Shown: positions 15,647 through 61,980 of the stretch, in pieces | How positions within the stretch are numbered: position 1 is the first letter of the stretch | How the letters are laid out: each line of letters begins with the position of its first letter | Origin: Polytrichum commune | Lineage: Eukaryota > Streptophyta > Polytrichopsida > Polytrichales > Polytrichaceae | DNA length: 64,000 nucleotides | NCBI GenBank assembly: GCA_950295325.1 | Contig: OX485803.1 | Location: 3,472,001-3,536,000 of the forward strand | Direction: 5' to 3' | Notes under the pieces: model-generated | What the model saw: only the letters and a program-made list of their open reading frames with translations | Databases searched by the model: none | Told to the model about the DNA's origin: nothing | Made by a program: the position numbers and the translations under genes

Positions 15647-15656
15647 CACCATGGCT
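15647..15656 (+). repeat. Left target-site duplication
   Basis: CACCATGGCT, identical to 26,224-26,233. Outside these 10 bp the flanks differ (A versus C on the left side), which fixes the length at 10. Confidence 0.85.
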
Positions 15657-15740
15657 GAGGGAAGCTATCTTATGAGCGATGAGCGGTGAGCGGTGAGCAG
15701 TAACACATGAGCAATGAGCAGTAACATATGAGCAATGAAT
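15657..15740 (+). repeat. Left terminal inverted repeat with 7-bp array
   Basis: After the first 15 bases, the sequence from 15,672 falls into nine consecutive heptamers of the form ATGAGCG, GTGAGCG, ATGAGCA or GTAACAC/T, with no gaps. Strictly phased short repeats just inside the ends are plausible transposase-binding sites. The subterminal GGGTTTAGGGTTTA (15,761-15,774) follows. Confidence 0.8.
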
Positions 15741-15873
15741 CCAAATTTAGTAGAGACACACGGGTTTAGGGTTTACAACCAAATTTTTGACAAATTAATT
15801 GCATATTTTCAATTGTAAATTGCCAATATTTTAAATGAAGCACAAGTGAAAGGGCCCTATTTCCATAAATCAT

Positions 15874-16062
15874 TTAGAACACTTTCAATCCATTGCTGAT
15901 TTTTATTATAATAATTCAAACCAATACTTGTCATTTATTGACATCCTTATACATATAGCTACAACTAGCACTTGTACAACTACTCACATTCTACAACACC
16001 AACAAATTCAAGTAGGTGCATAACTGCATTATACATATATGTCGGTGCCATAATTGTGAGCC
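15874..16062 (-). repeat. Duplicated 3' tail of the transposase gene
   Basis: This stretch repeats 16,448-16,640, about 570 bp away in the same orientation. Shared blocks include ATTTTTATTATAATAAT, TGTCATTTATTGACAT, ACTACTCACATTCTACAA and TTCAAGTAG. The duplicated portion covers the last codons of the SWIM-transposase frame and its 3' flank, so a diverged second tail lies downstream of the stop codon. Confidence 0.7.
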
Positions 16063-16164
16063 ACTCAAACTGCCCACAGGTTGAATAAAGGCCCTGAATC
16101 TACAAAAGAAAGAAAATTAGATATTAGAAATAATGAATATGTAGGTAGCTACTAGGTTTTGAGA

Positions 16165-16300
16165 CATCTGCCTGTGAATGCGAGTTGTGTAAGAGACTGG
16201 TATTAGGTCTGGATCAACCCGGGTTCGAATCTGGTTGGTTACATTGACTGGTGCTATCCCAAATTGAGCTAGTGATAAAGTAGAAATAATCTATAGGCGG
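16165..16300 (+). mobile_element. Possible SINE-like insertion between the duplicated tails
   Basis: A B-box-like GGTTCGAATC (16,222-16,231) sits in GTCTGGATCAACCCGGGTTC, which looks tRNA-derived. I could not place a good A box, so only the B-box half supports the call. It lies between the two copies of the transposase 3' tail. Confidence 0.3.
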
Positions 16301-17862
16301 ATACCAAGAAGAAGTTACTACACGGATGTGCGTAGAATCTTCATAATTATTTTTTATTTTTAGAAACGTGTTATTATTTATCCGTGTGAATCAATCAAAC
16401 CACACATGGTTGGGTCGCAGTCAAAATAAAAATGAAGTTACTGAATCATTTGAAATACTTTCAGTCCACTGCTAATTTTTATTATAATAATCCAAACCAA
16501 AACATGTCATTTATTGACATTCAAATATATGTTACTTAATAGAACACTTGCAATACTACTCACATTCTACAATACCAGCAAGTTCAAGTAGTCGCATGAC
16601 CTCATTATAGGTATATGTAGGTGCATGAATGAACTTGTCACTCTCGTAATCCACCTTGCACAAAAATCTAAACACATAATAAAGATGTTTACAATACACC
16701 CATTTTCCTTTATTTCCCAATGCATGAGAGGACATTTTCGTGAAATCTGGACATGTGCAATGCGGGATATTGCCAATTGTGACATGGTAGGTGATATCTT
16801 GCTTGGAGACAATGTTGATTATCACTCCAAAGCCCGGATATGGAATGGCAGTGACCCCAACCACATAGTAACCTTCCATGAGTCCGGCGCTCTCCCATTT
16901 GTTTTTGTGATCCGCCAGAGGTGCTGTTGGATTACGACGCACTGTCTTTCCAAATCTGAATGTAGGGTGGGCGTCTGGGTTTGGTGGCATAGAAAAATGC
17001 GAGCGAGGGATGGGAAGAGTTGCGATTGTTGAAAGCCTACGACGAGGAGACAATGCCTCCCTCTGCTATAGTTGAAATCCAACATCTTCAAGTGCCAAAA
17101 CCTCCTCTCTCGATAGATTGGTACCTATCTTCATTGGCCACGTGTTGGGTACTATAGGCCAATCCAACACATATTTCTTCTTACTACCACTTACACAACG
17201 TTTGATGTCGTCAGGACAAAACCAAAATTCATACTCCACATTGTTGGGAGAGCGAAATTCCTTCCTGAGCCCTTTGTATGTTGGAGCAGGTGTGCCATGT
17301 TTCCCAGTCCCGACTTTGGCATTGCACATAGTCCCTGTAATGGCCTGCAGTGCCCAACAACGTTTGGCTGAGTTGGGTGGCAATCTTGCAATGTGCCACT
17401 TAGAAGCAAGACAATCAGTCTCTAACATGGATGTAGTATGAGCCACACCATGAATTGCAGAACTCAACGATTCCTCTATGCGTTGATGAGTTGCTCGGGT
17501 GTTGGGACGAGGAATGAAATAGTTCACTTTGTCGGGTCGATGAGAGTCACAATCAACACCCGGTGGTAGGTTGAATTTGCGTTTGGTGGAACCAAAGAGC
17601 TTTGATCCTTCCAATGCACAATCTCTCGTGTTGACATCTTCTGCCCCTGGATAAGACTTCATGGCATCGGCCAACATTTTTGGATCTCCACACTTGGCAA
17701 CTACTTTGAGTTTCAAGGAGGCCGAATCAGGACCTTTACCATCAGACCCCCCTTTCAACCATGTCCGGTAATTTGCAATTTGCATGAAGGCACGGATCAT
17801 GTCGTCCACTGTAGCTTCATATAAACAAGTCATTTTATTGCCGGACTGTTGGAGCCATTTAT

Positions 17863-18127
17863 TGTGTACAATCTCTGCAAGGTTGCATTTTGGCATTTCT
17901 GCACGCTCTTCTATTGTCATCTCCTATGAACAACATACAAATATAAGGATAAGACAAACATAAGATAAATTATATATCTAGGTTTGGGTCGAACGACCCA
18001 AACTGTTTGTTGTTTGTTGTGTACAGTCTCTGCAAGGTTGCATGTTGGCATTCCCGCACGCTCTTTTATTGTCATATCCTATGAACAACACAGAAATACA
18101 AAGATAAGAAAAACATAGGATATATTA
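17863..18127 (-). repeat. Duplicated intron/exon junction flanking a palindrome
   Basis: 17,863-17,975 and 18,016-18,127 are near-copies. Both contain GTGTACA..CTCTGCAAGGTTGCAT, CACGCTCTT.TATTGTCAT and CCTATGAACAACA. They reproduce the acceptor and the first codons of the last transposase exon. The upstream copy lies within the intron. The spacer between copies is the palindrome at 17,983-18,002. Confidence 0.7.
17983..18002. repeat. Isolated copy of the 32-bp-array palindrome
   Basis: TTTGGGTCGAACGACCCAAA, followed by CTGT, is identical to the core of the units arrayed at 22,206-22,505. It lies about 4 kb away inside the transposase intron. Confidence 0.9.
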
Positions 18128-20621
18128 CATTGACTAATGAAATTTTATATGTACTTACAAGTAGCATATGGCCACCCCATTGTCTGTAACGAAAGTGCCA
18201 AAATCCCAACCACTCTGAAAGGCCAAGGATGCCTTCATCGGAGGCAGCTCCAGATGACAACCACCAAGAACGAATCACATGGTACTTGGTCTGAGCGTCG
18301 TCTATTGTTTTCGCGTCTTTGTAATCCTTGCATATTTGTTTGTGTTGAAATTGCAAGGATGGTTTGATATACTTTTGGGTCACCTTATCCAAGCTTGCGG
18401 ACCAATGGAAAAGACATGTACGCTCACGTGCAACCATGGGTAGACTTGGATCACCATCCCCGTAAATCGCCCTCACCGCATTCCAATTAGCTTGAGCACT
18501 ATCACTCATAAACCTTTTGAAGTTTACGTTTGGTACACCATTTTCTGCCATGACAGCATTCAAATTTTCCCAAAAGATAATTTGTGCTGCACCATCTTCA
18601 GATTGCATGTCACAACACGCAATAGTCAATACTTTACAGTATCGACTGTCGTACACATGGCAAGCCATGGTCAAACATAATCCATGAATTCTCCATATCC
18701 CCACCGACTTGCATCCTCTTCACAAGCTCCACACCACTACCTGGAAGGTCTACAGACATCTTAAAAACAAACACTTTGTCCTTTGACTGCCCTGGGAACC
18801 GACTACTATGGACGAATTTAAAAGCAGAGTGGTTTTTGAGCGCCATAATACTATCCATAGTTCCCATTCCACTACGCAAAAAACGCTTTGATCCAGATAC
18901 AAAGTTACGACAATTTGGAGATGCAAGAGTGCTGAATTTGTCCATGACGACCTCTAGGGATGAACCAACCAAGTGATGGCCTTCGACATTTGCGGGAGAT
19001 TTGAGAAGGTAATCGGCCAAGAATTGTTTGCTCGCCGCCATAATTATGGCTGAATTTCTTGCTGTGGGTGTTTTCAATACTTCATTTGCAACGCATTGGT
19101 ATGCCATGTCCAATGATTCACGGCATGCGCCATTGGCCACATGGTGATCATGTACACCAAGATGAATGCAAGCCCTGGACATTCCAACGGATGTGGAGTG
19201 GATGTATATGATTCGAGCATTATACAAAGCAATGCACACAGGTGTGGAACGACATACCTTACACTTGACAGTGGACTTAGTAGGGGGAACAACACCCACA
19301 GCAAATGAGAAAGGAGTTGAACCGGCCCATTCAATGTTGTTCCGGAGGCCCCCATTGCGATTCATATAATCACAGTAGTCATTATGACATTGGAGATGAC
19401 CAACACAAGTAGAGCGCCGGAAGGACAGTCCAAAGTTATTTTGGATATTCGTGGTTTTGGTGGTGCACCAAGGGTGACCGTCGCACATCTTGTCCATGCC
19501 GTCCATTGAGCGACCATACGTATTTGGAGCTTTGAGTGCCACAGGAGCCAAGAGAAACAAAACATCACCGTTAAAAGAAGATGGTAAGTACTTGACTTCA
19601 CGAACATCTATACTGTCAAAATTAATGGATGCAAGATCGGACTTTCATCTTTTTCTTGACTTTGTCAGCTTCAAGGCATCAATCATAATCAACCCTGTAA
19701 ATGAAGGTGAAGGGTGTAGTGGAGGACGTTGAGAAGATGAGATTTGGGGAACCGCCTTCTTATACATAAGACCGCAAGGGTGCGATAGAGGGAATTTGAA
19801 CTGTGGATGTACCGGATTCGTTTGTCAAAATGACAGTTGAAGCTTGCATTTGAGACTCAGAAAGTCCTATCACCCTAAATGAACCAGGTCCTAAGATCCA
19901 CATAAAACCAACATCAGTTTTATTTTTTGGAACCAAAATCGTTTCATACACCTCTCCATCTGCAGAGTACATCTCATGCTCTAAATACATGGTTCCTATT
20001 TGGAGGTTGAATCTCAAACTAAGTAAAATCCTCTGAAACATTCACATGACCATCATCTTGGAGTGGCAAGATGAAGGGAACAAAAGATCCATGAGCTCTA
20101 ATGGTAGCCATAGAAAATCAAAAAAACATATGAACAACACATCACAAAAATATGGGGTGAATGTTGCTTTTGTATAGAGTTGTGTAAGGAAATGAAGACG
20201 TGTGATACAATAATGGATGGAGATGAAAGCGTGTGATACATAGCATCTAATAATACAGAAGTGGACATAATACAATAATAGTCAGAGAATATTTACGAGC
20301 AAGATATATACAAAATGGCGTCAAATACTAAAAATATTGGTAGAAATTTAAAATATATGTGTGGACTGACGCAGATATAGAAAGAATTAAAATTGGTTGC
20401 AAAAATAAATTATTGATCATTATGAATAGAACAAAGTAGGTGTCAAAAAAATTTGGCGGATATAATAAAAATAAACACATAATGACAAACACGTCGAAAT
20501 ATATCGTTCATTGAACGCCAATTACAACAAGTGATCGTAATATACGCCGGATTTTGTAAGATAGATACATTGGAAGAATAAATGATAGTACCTGACAGAA
20601 AACATATCATAGACACCAACG

Positions 20622-20933
20622 ATGGTGGACGATGTAGAGAGAACACCCGTGAGGCCGAAGAGAAGACGTAGGAAAGCTTTGTATTTCACTTCCGAGAAAA
20701 AAAAGTTCAGACTCAGTGTGGGAAAGAAGGATGCAAAAAAGGAAGGGAAAAGAAACTTGTTGAATACAGTAGAAGAAACTGTGAAGACACTGGATCTTGA
20801 TGCGATGGAGGATGATGAAGGTGCAAAGAACAAAGAAGATGTAGACGATCGTATATCAGAGGCCGAATTGAAGATAGGTTCAAAGAAGACGACAAACAAA
20901 AAGATAAGTCAGTTCAACGTTCACATAATTTGA
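20622..20933 (+). CDS. Small basic/acidic protein of unknown function (doubtful)
   Basis: A 103-codon frame starts ATGGTGGACGATG. Residues about 10-45 are strongly basic (PKRRRRK, then lysine-rich), and residues about 55-90 are acidic (EDDEGAKNKEDVDD), like a nuclear or histone-binding tail. It lies between the transposase start and the palindrome arrays, on the strand of the methyltransferase-like gene. The opposite strand is also open (20,522-20,899, Ser/Phe-rich), and a donor-like CAG/GTACT on that strand at about 20,593 could mark a 5' transposase exon. I prefer the plus-strand reading slightly, on composition only. Confidence 0.3.
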   Translation: MVDDVERTPVRPKRRRRKALYFTSEKKKFRLSVGKKDAKKEGKRNLLNTVEETVKTLDLDAMEDDEGAKNKEDVDDRISEAELKIGSKKTTNKKISQFNVHII

Positions 20934-20954
20934 TAGTACATAAGTTGTAAGTTA

Positions 20955-21560
20955 GGATGGAGAACCTTGTACGTTTACTCACATGTCATGTAGTAGCAAT
21001 TTATAGACGTTATAAATTGGAGAGGAGAAACCCTATACGTTAATGCACATGGTATATAACAGAAATTTAGGATGGCTAGAAGTCAGGAGGAGATCGCAAA
21101 GGGTTTATAAGAGCAACTTAGGAGGCGAGAAGTTGGGAGGTGAAACCCTGTACGTTAACGCACAAGATTTATAAGAACAACTTAGGAGGCAAAAAGTTGG
21201 GAGGCGAAACCCTGTGCGTTAACGCACAGGGTTTGTAAGAGCAACTTAGGAAGGCCAAAGTTGGGAGGAGAAACCCTGTGCGTTAGCGCACAGGGTTTAT
21301 AAGCGCAACTTAGGAAGGCCAAAGTTGGGAGGAGAAACCCTGTGTGTTAACGCACAGGGTTTGTAAGCGCAACTTAGGAAGGCCAAAGTTGGGAGGAGAA
21401 ACCCTGTGTGTTAACGCACAGGGTTTGTAAGCGCAATTTAAAAACCCAAAATTGGGAGGAGAAACCCTGTGCGTTAACTTAAGAAGGCCAAAGTTGGGAG
21501 GTAAAACCCTGTGCGTTAACGCACAGGGTTTGTAAGAGCAATTTAGGAAGGCCAAAAGTT
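20955..21560. repeat. P1 array: 64-bp units centred on a GTTAAC palindrome
   Basis: Units start AAACCC at 21,207, 21,271, 21,335, 21,399 and 21,462, with a truncated step to 21,504. Diverged units precede them back to about 20,960. Each central unit holds the palindrome CCTGTGCGTTAACGCACAGG, plus a second, wider inverted pair CAACTT...AAGTTG in the spacer. Substitutions such as TGTG/CGTG are shared by neighbours, as expected of tandem amplification. The minus-strand frame across it is only a read-through of the repeat. The position between two divergent genes suggests an operator, origin or centromere-like role, or simply satellite growth. Confidence 0.9.
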
Positions 21561-21966
21561 GGGATGTAAAACGACTAGGAGAGCCTAAAACTAAAACAAA
21601 TATCTATTGTATGAATTTAAATCGATGTTCAGAACCTAGGAGCAAAAAAAACTATTGAAAACGGAGTTAGAATGCAAGAAATGAGAAATATGACTATTCA
21701 AGTTCTCATGCAATACGTTATAGGAGCTAGAAAATGACACAAAATACCATAAATGTTTTTTTGCCCCGAAACCCAAAATCTACGAGGTGGCCCAAAACAA
21801 GGAAATAGATAGAAGAATGAGAAAAGAAAATCATTTCAAACCAACACAAAATATAAGAAGAATTTGTAGCTACGGAAATTTAGATAGTATAGCATATGTT
21901 TATTTTTTTTGGGACCCCATTACGGTCTACTTGCCTAGCTAGAGGCTTCGCAAAGTTGGGCAAGTA

Positions 21967-22152
21967 GACCCTGTGCGTTAACGCACAAGGTCTGCGCTGG
22001 CAACTTTCTAGCGAGTATGCGGGGCCACGAAGAGCCATGCTAAATATGGCTGCAGGGACAAGTAGTATAAATTGCCACACCCCAAAGCATTCAATATTTT
22101 TTCTCTCCTCCGTCCTACCTGAGCTCATCGCTGCAAGCTCTCTCATCTACAG
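21967..22152 (+). promoter_or_regulatory. Candidate upstream promoter and 5' exon of the methyltransferase-like gene
   Basis: A P1-type palindrome (GTGCGTTAACGCAC, inside 21,967-21,992) lies about 80 bp upstream of TATAAAT (22,066-22,072). A pyrimidine-rich start region follows near 22,097, then a donor-like ACAG/GTACAG at 22,153. The next good acceptor is TTTTAG at 22,776-22,781, just before the ATG at 22,791. If used, the 32-bp array would lie in a 5' UTR intron. Inferred from sequence only. Confidence 0.4.
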
Positions 22153-22205
22153 GTACAGTACAAGGTTTGTTTGCACTTTCGTGGTGACTGGGTAATTGCG
22201 CATAA

Positions 22206-22505
22206 TCAGGCGTAAATTGCGGACAGTTTTGGTCATTCGACCCAAACTGTGTGCCTAGTTTGGGTCGAACGACCCAAATTGTGAGCATGGTTTGGGTCGA
22301 ACGACCCAAACTGTCTACCTAGTTTGGGTCGAACCACCCAAACTGTGTGCCTAGTTTGGGTCGTTCGACCCAAACTGTGAGCATGGTTTGGGTCGTTCGA
22401 CCCAAACTGTGAGCATGGTTTGGGTCGTTCGACCCAAATTGTGAGCATGGTTTGGGTCGTTCGACCCAAACTGTCTACCTAGTTTGGGTCGAACGATCCA
22501 AACCT
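22206..22505. repeat. P2 array: nine 32-bp units with GGGTCG/CGACCC palindromes
   Basis: Each unit is a 20-bp palindrome-like core (TTTGGGTCG, two central bases, CGACCCAAA) plus a 12-bp spacer. The central pair is AA in some units and TT in others. Spacers come in three types: CTGTGAGCATGG, CTGTCTACCTAG and CTGTGTGCCTAG. Unit length is constant at 32 bp, about three helical turns, so all cores face the same side of the DNA. The first unit (GGTCATTCGACC) and the last (GATCC arm) are diverged. Confidence 0.95.
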
Positions 22506-22542
22506 TGCGTCCAACTTTGGTAGACTTGTAGTTGGACGCATA

Positions 22543-22625
22543 GACCCTGTGCGTTAACGCAGAGGGTCTGGCCTTGTAGTTTTTGGGGTGAGCGGCCACC
22601 CTAATCGTACAATATTTAAAGGTGC
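22543..22625 (+). promoter_or_regulatory. Candidate proximal promoter of the methyltransferase-like gene
   Basis: A third P1-type palindrome (GTGCGTTAACGC, in 22,543-22,568) is followed about 45 bp later by TATTTAAA (22,612-22,619). This repeats the palindrome-then-TATA layout of 21,967-22,072. It may be an alternative promoter driving a shorter 5' UTR before the ATG at 22,791. Confidence 0.4.
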
Positions 22626-22790
22626 AAATGGCTGTGTCTAGAATAATTTTTGTCATTCTTCGCTGTGTTCGTGGTATTCTGTTGTTATTGTTGTTACTAT
22701 TGCTGTTGTTTTTGTAATGTTATTGCTAATGTGTTGCTACTGGTTTTGAAATATTTATGAAATTTATTTCATTTGTTTTAGGACCAATCA

Positions 22791-25700
22791 ATGGATTTAG
22801 AAAGAACGACTCTTATTTTTACTGATGATTATTCTACAATGCATTCAATTCAAGATCGTCCATCTCAACAAGTTCATCATCATCAGGACATATCGTCAAA
22901 TCTTCATAATAAGAAAAAGAAGAAAATAAATGAATCTCTCGATGATTTTGACTCGGATGAAGATAATGATGGGGACAATAAAACTTATGAAGAGAAAGTG
23001 TGAGAGCTTATAAACAAACGAAAGGTCAATTCCATTTTCACAATTTCGTCAATCCGTGCTGGACCTAATGCTCGCTTGCATATACCCTTATGTCGCATGG
23101 TTCCTATGCCGATTGTGCGTCCTGCTTTGAAGGGTGACATTACTAAATTGGAGGCTGATTTTTTCAATGGTTATCGTGATGGTGACCGTGTATTTTATAT
23201 ATCGACCACCGATTCTAAGGGAAACTTTCAATTCGTGGATGATGAGGTTCGCACAGCTTGGAGCCCAAATCGGGCTAAAGCCAATGTCCTGTTTGAATCT
23301 CAATTGGATACAGATTTGTCATTGACGTCATACAAGAACAAGATGTTTTTTATATGGGATGGAAATCACAGATTTTTTGCTTGGAAAATTTATATTGACC
23401 GCGTATATACCGAAGATTTATGAACGTCATGTCTTTGTGGATTCTATCATTTTGACGCCCGAGCCTGACGACATTCCAAGTTTGTTGACTGCCCTGCATG
23501 ACATCAACAAGTAATGTTCTTTACCTATTTTTTTACACTTATTTCTAATTTATATTTTGTTTTCCAAATTATATCATCATGAATCTAATCAATTTAATGT
23601 TTCTTTTAGGTCAACCGAAAATTTTCACGTATCCACCAATTTGGTAATAGATTTGACAAAGATGCATTGCATTTCCCGAAATCGCCCCTCTCTGATTCTA
23701 CACTTGATGATTGGTAACAAAGTCTACATATTGGGCACAGTTGGAAAAAAAGGCTATCGAAGAGCTTCAATGTATTCTTTCATTTCCTCTTCAGTTACCT
23801 GCAGATGTGCGTACTCTCTCCGAGTATATCCAAACCTGGAAGTTTGCGGCTTTCAATTCAATCTTCTATCGTGAATTCCAAAGCGGAAAAGTTAAAAAAC
23901 ACAACGGTTGGGAAGAGCAACCTAATATCGATCTTGCTATAAAACGTGTATTATACAGGTACAACCTAATCTTTTTATTTTTTTTATTTTTTTTATTTCG
24001 TTTGTCAAATTGTCATGGAATATTAGAGTTACAATATTTTTGTATGTAGGTATTTTCGATATATTTTGATTCCACATAAATGCGTTATAGGGGAACCTCG
24101 TTTTTTCCCAAATTGGCGTGACACTGGTGCAAGAGATTCATGCATGTTCACTACTGAGATTTGTTTGGATTGGTCACTCCCACACTATGAGGATTGTGGT
24201 TGGTATCTTGATTGTCCTAAGGATGCATGTCCGTCAAGTGAGAAGACAATCCGTCAGATAAATGATGCTAAAAATGTGGATCCTCGTGATATTGCAATTT
24301 TGCAAGCACAAATTGTGTAGCTTAAATTAGAGAGCCAGAACCAAAAGAGACAAAACATCGTAAGAGGAAACATGTTCCTGAAACCAAAATAGAAGATCAA
24401 TCGGAAATTTCACAACATAAAGAATTGCTTGTTCTTTCCAATGATTTGGATAAGAATCCACTTGGAGGCGAAAGTTCAAAGTCTGGATGCGATGTATTGG
24501 AATTTCATTATTCCAGCATCTATGACGCTATTCATCGTGCACCAACGGATATTTTGAGAAAAAAATTATTCATACCGAAAAACTTTCTCACGCTCTCGTT
24601 TGCTCGATCTACTGCTGTCAAGATCAAGTCTGAAGGGGTGGATGTAGGCCCTCCTGAGTGGATCCAATGGCGGGAATTTATTGAAAACGTAAGTATTATT
24701 GTTTTGGTATTTTCTCTAATGTTCTTACTTTCATTTGGATTTTATTTTGTGTCTTATATTGTGATATGTTGTGGTATTTCAGTTCAATGACAATCGCGAA
24801 TTTCATGTCATGGGAAGTCCGACTCCCTTTGCCGTTGACTTGGTTTTTCTCCAATTTCCCGACGGTCTTGACTTCAACCTCTCCAATAGACCTGCTGAAA
24901 TTCCTCTTTGGAATAAATATGACAAAAACTGGATGGTTGCAACAATGTCCTTGTGCAAGTCCATCTTGTCTAATGATGGCGTCCTCATAGTATTTTCTGC
25001 TATCGATATGCAAACCAAAAAGGTTTTGAATTCAACCTTATACAACGGCAACATGAAAGTTCTTAGGAGTTTTATTTGCCTCAATTCGTACATGGTGTTC
25101 AAGGATCCGGAGTCTCCAACCTACACCGTAAGTATAATACATCACAATTGTTTCTATTTAATTATTTTGGTATTATTTGCATTGTATATAGTTTTAACAC
25201 AATTTACATTTTTTTTGTAGACTCCGGTATTTATGGCTCATGTCTTGGTAAGGGATTTTACTACCACAAAATTCACGAGACAACCAAACTCCACTTTTTT
25301 TGGCACTGGATTGAAAAGCAAAAACTTGCTTTTCAATTTTGTGGATGAAAAAAACATGCTTCTTCAAAAATCGGGAAGACCTTGGAGGGGGCCATATTAA
25401 AAATCGCCACGTTTTTTAACAAGATCTTATTGAATTGTTTACACCATCGAATGGACGCGTTGTTGATTTGACATGTTCCAATGGAGCTCCTATCCTAGCA
25501 ACACGCGCATGTGGCAGACATCTTCTTGCATTTGAGGGTGATAATGACATGTTTGAGCACATATTGAAACCGCTTTTGGAAAACGTTTTCAAAGAGGGGT
25601 CATCTAAGGAGAATATACAAGATCTCACAAAAGAAGATGATAACCTCTCCGATGAGGAGATGCTTGAATTTGAGTGTGAGTAAGTTTTAATACAATAAAT

Positions 25701-25980
25701 TTTTATTCAATTCATTCGTTTCATTCAATTCATTGGTTCATTTTTATTTCTTCACATTATTTACATGTTTCATCGATTCGATTTCAGGAATACGATTGGA
25801 AAGAGGACATGTCTCCCGTTTTGGGCACATAGACAATTCCTACGAAGTCCAAGCCGTAGCCCGCGTCTCCCATCATATGCCGAGAATGTTGCAATTGCAA
25901 TGTTGAATCTCGAAGATTCGGATCCAAATGAAGAATCTTGCTATAGTTCCAAAATCAATTCGCAATGCAAAGGTGCTTGA
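22791..25980 (+). pseudogene. ParB-like domain fused to beta-class amino-methyltransferase-like domain (six exons, broken)
   Basis: Exons 22791-23510, 23610-23958, 24050-24688, 24783-25127, 25221-25679 and 25788-25980 are bounded by GT-AG introns and keep phase, giving about 900 residues. Residues 1-75 are polar and acidic. About 95-240 resemble a ParB/sulfiredoxin fold, with FIWDGNHRFFAW matching the GxHR signature. Residues about 584-596 (FAVDLVFLQFPDG) sit where motif IV (DPPY) of N4/N6 DNA methyltransferases is expected, but lack it. SNDGVLIVF follows. About 762-775 (VVDLTCSNGAP) resembles the SAM-binding motif I. Motif IV before motif I is the beta-class order. Breaks seen are TGA at 23,001, a frameshift near 23,408, another near 23,740, TAG at 24,318, a shift near 24,350, and a shift plus stop near 25,396-25,419. 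ParB-methyltransferase fusions are known in phages and bacteria. The assignment here is by motif only. Confidence 0.6.
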
Positions 25981-26166
25981 ATATATATAGATGACGAGGC
26001 AAAAGATAGTTTCATGTCTAGTGCTACTACTGATGAATAAATTTTTGGACTTCATGTTGTTTATCCTTCTCAACCCTCTTATTACTAAACCCTAAAATCA
26101 TCATTTTTAAGGCCACAATTCCACGGTTATAGGATATTGGTGGCCCTATTACCAAAAATTTCATCT

Positions 26167-26223
26167 TCCTCACTGCTCATAAGTTACCGCTCATCGCTCA
26201 CCGCTCATAAGATAGCACTCCCC
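26167..26223 (-). repeat. Right terminal inverted repeat with 7-bp array
   Basis: Read on the minus strand from 26,208, the sequence gives ATGAGCG, GTGAGCG, ATGAGCG, GTAACTT, ATGAGCA and GTGAGGA. These are the same heptamer types as the left end, in a different order. The outer 15 bases match the left terminus at 11 positions. The array is shorter than on the left. Confidence 0.8.
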
Positions 26224-26233
26224 CACCATGGCT
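26224..26233 (+). repeat. Right target-site duplication
   Basis: CACCATGGCT, identical to 15,647-15,656 and directly abutting the right inverted terminus. Its perfection suggests the insertion is not ancient. Confidence 0.85.
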
Positions 26234-28826: not shown

Positions 28827-28960
28827 GAGGGAAACTAAGACACGAGCAATGAGCACTACGCACTAAGCAGTAACTTATGAGGGGTGAGTGGTATCTTGTG
28901 AGCGGTGAGCTCAAAATAATGGAATCCTCGTGGTTATAGGGTTTATAATTTAAAATATAC
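28827..28960 (+). mobile_element. Terminal fragment of a related MULE (element 3)
   Basis: It starts GAGGGAAACTAAGACACG and continues in heptamers (ACGAGCA, ATGAGCA, CTACGCA, CTAAGCA, GTAACTT, ATGAGGG, GTGAGTG, GTATCTT, GTGAGCG). It is followed by CGTGGTTATAGGGTTTATAA, which matches the subterminal GGGTTTAGGGTTTA of the large element. No transposase follows, so this is a solo or heavily deleted end. Confidence 0.7.
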
Positions 28961-37005: not shown

Positions 37006-37049
37006 GAGTTGGGCTTCTCCGGCCTCAAGAGGCCGGAGAAGCCCAACTC
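37006..37049. repeat. Perfect 44-bp hairpin
   Basis: GAGTTGGGCTTCTCCGGCCT and its exact complement form 21-bp arms around AA, within the right subterminal part of the 3.4-kb element. Confidence 0.95.
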
Positions 37050-60049: not shown

Positions 60050-61980
60050 GGCTATGGAGAAGGGACATACAATCGTGAAAAGACAAAAAGGAAAGCTAGA
60101 TCTCCTTCTTCCTCAAAAACTTCATCCTCTTCATCAAAACAAGAAATTGAAGGACACGCAATAAACAAAAAGAGGAAGAAATATATAGGTAAAAATAATA
60201 TCTTGCACAACATCCGTAAGAGCCTGCAACTACCTACTTTCTCTGGTGGAGTTAATCTCAAACCTGAGGCAATTCTATCATTTTCAGGAATGGTAGAACA
60301 CTTGTTTTAGGGAGAGCTCTCAAGAAAGATAATGCGAGGGCAATTTCTTTTCAATTGAGAGAACAAGCCCATCTTTGGTGGACTCGTGTTAAGGCTAACA
60401 AAGAGGATGCCAACAAGGGTCCTGTGGATACATGGTCTAAGTTCAAAAAGTTGTTCTTAGAATATTTTTTACCACGTAATCATATCTTTAGTTGAGATTT
60501 TTGTTTTTATTTTTATTTTTATTTTTATTGAGTGAACAAGCTCATCTTTGTTGGACTCATGTTAAGGCTAACAAAGAGGATGCCAACAAGGGTCCTGTGG
60601 ACACATAGTCTAAGTTCAAAAAGTTGTTCTTAGAATAATTTTTACCACGTAATCATATCTTTAGTTGAGATTTTTTTTTAATTTTTTTAATTTTTTTATT
60701 GAGTGAACAAGCTCATCTTTGTTGGACTCATGTTAAGGCTAACAAAGAGGATGCCAACAAGGGTCCTGTGGACACATAGTCTAAGTTCAAAAAGTTGTTC
60801 TTAGAATAATTTTTACCACGTAATCATATCTTTAGTTGAGATTTTATTTTTTATTTTTTTATTGAGTGAACAAGCTCATCTTTGTTGGACTCATGTTAAG
60901 GCTAACAAAGAGGATGCCAACAAGGGTCCTGTGGACACATAGTCTAAGTTCAAAAAGTTGTTCTTAGAATAATTTTTACCACGTAATCATATCTTTAGTT
61001 GAGATTTATTTTTTATTTTTTTTTATTTTTTTATTGAGTGAACAAGCTCATCTTTGTTGGACTCATGTTAAGGCTAACAAAGAGGATGCCAACAAGGGTC
61101 CTGTGGACACATAGTCTAAGTTCAAAAAGTTGTTCTTAGAATAATTTTTACCACGTAATCATATCTTTAGTTGAGATTTTTTTTAAAATTTTTTTAATTT
61201 TTTTATTGAGTGAACAAGCTCATCTTTGTTGGACTCATGTTAAGGCTAACAAAGAGGATGCCAACAAGGGTCCTGTGGACACATAGTCTAAGTTCAAAAA
61301 GTTGTTCTTAGAATAATTTTTACCACGTAATCATATCTTTAGTTGAGATTTTTTTTTAAAATTTTTTTATTGAGTGAACAAGCTCATCTTTGTTGGACTC
61401 ATGTTAAGGCTAACAAAGAGGATGCCAACAAGGGTCCTGTGGACACATAGTCTAAGTTCAAAAAGTTGTTCTTAGAATAATTTTTACCACATAATCATAT
61501 CTTGAATGAGCGGTTGACAAATTTGAGACATGAGACATTGTCATTTTGAGAATACAAAGATAGGTTCGACAAGTTAGTTGAATACTTTCCAGACTTATTT
61601 GACAAAGACAAACAAATATTCTTTGTTACGGGACTTTAAAGTTCAATAAAATATGATGTTAAAGCTTTGAAGCCTTATACGCTCGGAAAAACGTATATTA
61701 TGGCTTTAACATTCGAGACTAAGAATGTTGAACTAGCTAGAGAGAAGAAGATTTTGTTTGATGTATCTCGTAAGGATCATAGCAGTAGGAAAAAAAGTGG
61801 GAAGTGGAAGAAGCCCCAAAAGTTTCCACGTCTGGAGGGACTAGGCCAAACCCGACAAAGAAACAAACTCAACTACAAAAACCAAGCATAACACCGAAAG
61901 AAAGGGTTGTGCTAGAGCTGTCATGAGCCCGAAAATCTCACTAAGGATTGTTTGCAACCAGTGGAAAAACGGCCAAAACA
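60050..61980 (+). pseudogene. gag, broken and internally expanded
   Basis: The N-terminal part (60,050-60,470) has several stops. The capsid-like stretch with AHLWWTRVKANKEDANKGP is at about 60,364-60,420. After the tandem tract (to 61,500) the frame resumes with LNERLTNLRHETLSF, DLFDKDKQIFFVTGL, a basic KKSGKWKKPQK segment and a zinc-knuckle-like stretch near 61,905-61,955, where a stop separates the first Cys from SCHEPENLTKDC. The knuckle is therefore damaged. Confidence 0.7.
60359..61500 (+). repeat. Seven-copy tandem expansion inside gag
   Basis: Units start at about 60,355 and then, measured on AGTGAACAAG, at 60,531, 60,702, 60,865, 61,037, 61,209 and 61,373 (periods 163-172 bp). Each has about 120 bp of gag sequence plus a T-rich linker (TTTAGTTGAGATTTTT...TTTATTGAGTG). 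Copy 1 reads GATACATGG where copies 2-7 share GACACATAG (a stop), and copies 2-7 share GAATAATTT for GAATATTTT. Copies 2-7 therefore descend from one mutated unit. Variation is mostly in the T-rich linker. Confidence 0.95.

Follow-up and report, generated by a model that had tools for sequence, protein, structure and literature searches.

Why should a DNA transposon of a moss carry, opposite its transposase, a gene for a protein with a ParB-like fold, and why should palindromes fill the space between the two genes? The question is raised by an element of Polytrichum commune (assembly GCA_950295325.1, contig OX485803.1) lying in a stretch of 64,000 nucleotides (positions 3,472,001 to 3,536,000), which is referred to below as the window. 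The element is a two-gene Mutator-like DNA transposon (Mutator-like element, MULE) in which a minus-strand transposase gene is followed by palindrome arrays in the middle and by a divergent plus-strand gene, here called gene 2. The proposal developed below, for which the chances appear about even, is that gene 2 acts on the palindromes as an element-encoded self-recognition system that would keep the element's own promoters from silencing.

The full form of gene 2 comprises seven exons encoding 1076 amino acids and is open in three of the ten related copies fetched from the host genome; its introns are of the GT-AG type, in keeping with the initial annotation of a divergent, intron-bearing second gene. 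The encoded protein consists of a ParB/sulfiredoxin-type, putatively nucleotide-binding domain, an uncharacterised middle part of about 450 residues, and an N6/N4-methylase-like part. The first domain was recognised by its predicted fold, whose matches include KorB and which supports the earlier ParB-like reading; the motif DGNHR occupies what we take to be the place of the GERR-type ParB motif. Exon 1 returned nothing relevant from Pfam, and the read-through of gene 2 had no match in the protein collection, the query being approximate (exons joined by eye, with a short wrong-frame stretch). The methylase-like part matches PF01555 with E-values of 1.4e-5 and 1.8e-4 (25.6 and 22.0 bits, below the cut-off of 26.7) and, among PDB profiles, DpnA (E 3e-4), and the S-adenosylmethionine-binding motif I is well preserved (DLTCSTGAS, DITASTGAS). 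The catalytic motif IV of N6/N4 DNA methylases has the form (D/N/S)PP(Y/F/W). In gene 2 this DPPY-type motif is replaced in all three lineages read, by QFPD in clade 1 and by DVPE in both L003 and L055. The methyltransferase-like reading is supported by these profile similarities, whereas active methylation is, judged from motif IV, doubtful.

Palindromes of 20–28 bp that leave no more than one position unpaired are concentrated in the array region of the element. Two perfect palindromes with arms of at least 9 bp occur at 20930–22600, compared with none across 50 first-order shuffles, so the arrays noted earlier in the shared intergenic space exceed chance. The clade 1 palindromes are P1, ACCCTGTGCGTTAACGCACAGGGT, with 7–19 per fetched stretch, and P2, GTTTGGGTCG-NN-CGACCCAAAC, with 7–26. 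P2 also populates the transposase intron of inspected copies (48 units), and a larger palindrome array is housed by this intron in four of the copies inspected; none of the 25 P1/P2 sites of the element in the reference copy lies inside a gene-2 exon. The array-2 palindrome has constrained arms and a free 2-bp centre: in units picked by neighbouring sequence and not by their own match, conservation was 0.982 in the arms, 0.513 in the centre and 0.782 in the spacer (n=78, p 0.0002), with a consistent result for the intron array (n=28, p 0.0013). In copy C1:63.98, 11 of the 26 P2 palindromes lie in the flank, where an adjoining array with a 78-bp unit has an unrelated spacer and an unchanged P2 core. 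The genome contains 9,231 exact P2 sites and not one of the reversed-pattern control.

The family was traced in the host assembly (408 Mb, 64 contigs). Exon 1 of a metagenomic relative, P0078, gave 153 gene-2 matches (150 of 1,245 candidates scored), and a second relative, P0080, gave 152 (150 of 1,258 scored) at largely the same places, while the transposase search gave 61 matches (61 of 2,784 candidates scored). Ten of the best gene-2 places were fetched, 15 kb each. All ten align with the window element over the transposase, both arrays and gene 2; copies regularly lacking the ParB-like gene or the arrays, which had been named beforehand as evidence against a single element, were not encountered among them. 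Further copies with matching ends, a search for which had been suggested, are present: perfect direct repeats of 10–11 bp bound all nine copies read at both ends, which are 11.28–13.59 kb long, and the left end of the tenth, C7:18.71, lies beyond the fetched stretch. A divergent gene-2 match lies within 20 kb of 46 of the 61 scored transposase copies, and within 7 kb for 44.

Duplications of the 8–11-bp class and terminal inverted repeats common to the copies are those of a MULE. In the window the two 10-bp duplications show no mismatch, and the inverted-repeat match extends over 46 bp with 83% complementarity (arms 15649–15694 and 26186–26231, taking in part of the duplication). The transposase has a DDE/RNase H fold of the MULE/IS256 kind, closest to that of ISCth4, with the first D within CDMQSED, then the second D region, and the E within NLAEIVHNKW. 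A probable SWIM-like finger is also present, to which the Pfam SWIM model matches at E 0.009 (16.0 bits, below the cut-off of 19.6) and whose Cys/His pattern is retained in C1:63.98 and in the relative L001. The Pfam MULE transposase model had no match among the window pieces, P0001, P0002 and P0020 at E up to 10, in a search whose HMMER filters discard weak matches. The element shares with the MULE/IS256 group its 10-bp duplication, inverted ends, catalytic fold and, probably, a SWIM finger; the initial annotation had likewise relied on the duplication, the ends and the type of transposase.

The connection between gene 2 and the arrays, first put forward as conjecture, gains independent support because diverged gene-2 lineages bear different palindromes. 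Three further lineages have 40–43% identity, one of which (L003) comes from outside the host genome. L054 and L055 (43%) carry GGTTTCGG-GA-CCGAAACC, 18 each; L056 (41%) carries 13 of GTGTCTCGG-NN-CCGAGACAC; and L003 (40%) carries four of TTGGGTCTCGG-NN-CCGAGACCCAA. Cross-matches with at most three mismatches comprise three L056-type sites in L003, the two motifs being similar, and one L054-type site in C2:62.59. L054 and L056 each have a divergent transposase upstream of gene 2; the 10 kb fetched for L055 showed none, nor did the 4.7-kb contig of L003, for which no tblastn search for a transposase was made. L001 has a transposase and none of the five palindrome motifs in 4.1 kb. The intron-bearing transposase of L001 and the gene-2 relative of L003 were found on contigs of the Synechococcales bin AVDCRST_MAG81 (G001); these contigs are probably eukaryote contamination of the cyanobacterial bin.

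Two known systems bear on the function of this arrangement. In the VANC/VANDAL anti-silencing system of Arabidopsis MULEs, according to the parts of the papers available (PMC5735166, PMC10398659), short motifs are tandemly repeated in introns and other non-coding parts and change between related elements. The moss element likewise combines a MULE with an extra protein and with lineage-varying motif arrays in non-coding DNA and introns. VirB, the antisilencer of Shigella, has a ParB-type fold and palindromic loading sites and counters silencing by H-NS, as described in the available part of its source (PMC10770331); gene 2 encodes a ParB-type fold, with the palindromes as putative sites. Self-recognition with anti-silencing is favoured because the layout follows the VANC/VANDAL plan and the protein is of the VirB type. 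A dimer of the gene-2 protein would recognise the palindromes, with their 10-bp arms and free 2-bp centre, which are repeated in introns as well as in the space separating the two divergent genes. Once bound, it would perhaps form a ParB/VirB-like clamp that loads at a palindrome and then spreads. It would thereby hold host silencing off the element promoters, or release them from it, and so allow expression of both transposase and gene 2; since each lineage has its own palindrome, it would act mainly on kin. That the protein binds DNA is probable, and the anti-silencing outcome is conceivable at somewhat less than even odds. More tentatively, a prokaryote-type ParB/methylase fusion may have turned into a sequence-specific, clamp-forming anti-silencing or self-recognition system with parS-like arrays, in which protein and palindrome diversify together.

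The differences from both systems are considerable. The gene-2 protein combines a ParB fold with a methylase-like part and matched none of the Pfam families associated with VANC; it is putatively unrelated to VANC. The motif of VANC21, in the part of the literature available, is a directional 9-mer, in contrast to the palindromes of about 20 bp found here, and anti-silencing belongs to VANC itself, whereas for gene 2 it is suggested by analogy. In VirB and ParB-parS systems, as far as their available descriptions go, one site can suffice and no methylase-like part is present.

As to silencing in the host, transitions at C are raised in every context among the gene-2 copies (0.0184 per site in CG, 0.0163 in CHG and 0.0139 in CHH, compared with 0.0014 at A/T), which suggests methylation in all contexts. 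The element has a CpG observed/expected ratio of 0.76, compared with 0.47 for the rest of the window. Excess CpG loss was considered as a further sign of methylation and rejected, since it is not seen against a GpC control (50/1,251 and 66/1,486, respectively).

Several observations weigh against an element-encoded self-recognition system. The CpGs of the palindromes are no better kept than others, TG/CA being found in 8/156 in array 2 and 6/56 in the intron array, compared with 50/1,251 across the gene-2 region. In array 1 the arms are not clearly constrained (0.848 vs 0.788, p 0.064), and the 1.5 kb around gene-2 locus L011 are free of array-2 palindromes. The lineages diverge everywhere, so that spacer differences alone are expected, and the argument from lineages and palindromes therefore depends on their common layout. 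Whether both genes and arrays travel together, a test proposed at the outset, was answered positively in the fetched copies but not throughout: for 15 of the 61 scored transposase copies the matches listed include no divergent gene 2 at a distance of up to 20 kb (seven in the 794-aa subfamily, three in the 754–764-aa subfamily and five in neither), and related transposases may therefore manage without gene 2. Finally, among 100 listed P2 sites of the 9,231, compared by hand with the listed gene-2 and transposase matches, 22 have a gene-2 match no more than 20 kb away and one is beside a transposase match; the other 77 are grouped in three clusters, each about 10 kb long, that have neither gene listed nearby, and the palindromes could instead be read by a host protein or by another element. 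The clusters (C1:616088-626110, 1180627-1190831 and 2115505-2125786) contain units of many lengths and perhaps represent another element family sharing the recognition site.

Among the alternatives, the gene-2 protein could repress or activate the two divergent promoters, its own included, with the palindromes as operators and no anti-silencing. The arrays do lie between the divergent genes, upstream of gene 2, and KorB, one of the fold matches, is a ParB-family repressor; however, dozens of sites per copy, some in introns, would seem to exceed the needs of a promoter operator, and in L054–L056 sites lie well downstream of gene-2 exon 1, so that this explanation is unlikely. A role of the palindromes as sites of the transposase or a transposition complex, with another function for gene 2, is quite improbable. 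It would explain why the transposase travels with the arrays and has a precedent in TNPA of En/Spm, which binds repeated subterminal motifs, but the arrays here are internal, at least 2 kb from either end, L003 combines gene 2 and palindromes with no transposase seen on its contig, and L001 has a transposase without the motifs. Of similarly low probability, if slightly less credible, is that the palindromes are sites of a host factor or part of another repeat family, which the element merely carries or has acquired. The 77 listed sites away from both genes and the identical core in the 78-bp array flanking C1:63.98 agree with this; against it, the limited share of candidates scored means that unlisted relatives may occupy the clusters, and other lineages have the same layout with other palindromes. 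It is highly improbable that gene 2 encodes a functional DNA methyltransferase marking the element, since motif IV is replaced in spite of the preserved motif I and the PF01555 similarity.

The window element itself is a decayed family member, because both of its genes are broken. Gene 2 has four in-frame stops, frameshifts and a loss of about 155 codons relative to intact copies, and the transposase, intact in C1:63.98, is interrupted by frameshifts and by one or more stops. The earlier description as a complete MULE is thus correct for the ends but not for function. The features are listed in Table 1. The small charged open reading frame is also open in C1:63.98. Searches for tRNA and Rfam families found nothing.

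Table 1. Features of the Polytrichum commune element, in window coordinates
Feature	Position	Strand	Remarks
Whole element	15657-26223		10,567 bp
Target site duplication, left	15647-15656		CACCATGGCT
Target site duplication, right	26224-26233		CACCATGGCT
Terminal inverted repeat, left	15657-15694	+	inverted-repeat pair in window
Terminal inverted repeat, right	26186-26223	-	inverted-repeat pair in window
SWIM-type transposase gene, decayed	16559-20111	-	ATG 20111; exon 1 to ~18160; exon 2 ~17923 to 16559
Transposase intron	17924-18159	-	retains one array-2 palindrome, 17982-18003
Small, highly charged open reading frame	20622-20933	+	103 aa; between transposase and array 1
Array 1	21095-21545		64-bp unit; palindrome AAACCCTGTGCGTTAACGCACAGGGTTT
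Extra array-1-type palindrome	21966-21993		ahead of array 2
Array 2	22226-22503		32-bp unit; palindrome GTTTGGGTCG-NN-CGACCCAAAC
Extra array-1-type palindrome	22542-22569		past array 2
Gene 2, ParB-fold/N6_N4-methylase-like, decayed	22791-26040	+	exons by comparison with copy C1:63.98
Gene-2 exons, window copy	22791-23510; 23610-23958; 24050-24688; 24783-25127; 25221-25679; 25788-26040	+	23610-23958 is a remnant of exons 2 and 3, the remainder deleted

Elsewhere in the window, a tandem repeat of GTAACTTATGAGCGGTGAGTG at 28870-28909, 2.6 kb past the right end of the element, resembles the terminal motif and is perhaps a remnant of another copy. A 172-bp tandem repeat (60354-61503) has 6.8 copies with 95% matches, and a 44-bp palindrome at 37006-37049, with at most one unpaired position, is unrelated to the arrays.

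Fusions of ParB-CTPase-fold proteins with an N6_N4 methylase (PF01555) are reported from phages and bacteria and tied to mobile elements, in the available part of the source (PMC12704722). Gene 2 resembles them in uniting both domain types in one protein and in its tie to a mobile element, and differs in being intron-bearing, residing on a eukaryotic DNA transposon, and being far diverged, with a gap of about 450 residues and an altered motif IV. The phage DNA searched contained no match to the element, and viral contigs searched with the transposase, gene 2 and one exact palindrome yielded no relative. A paper with a table of MULEs (PMC6446971), in its available part, describes no ParB-type second gene and makes no mention of ParB, and no report of a ParB-type gene or a ParB-methylase pair on a eukaryotic transposon was found in the literature searched. 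If the proposed function is correct, a ParB-type switch would be working in a eukaryotic mobile element, and VANC-like self-recognition would have arisen independently. With many copies, several palindrome lineages and a silencing host, the family would make the escape of a transposon testable with one protein and short DNA sites.
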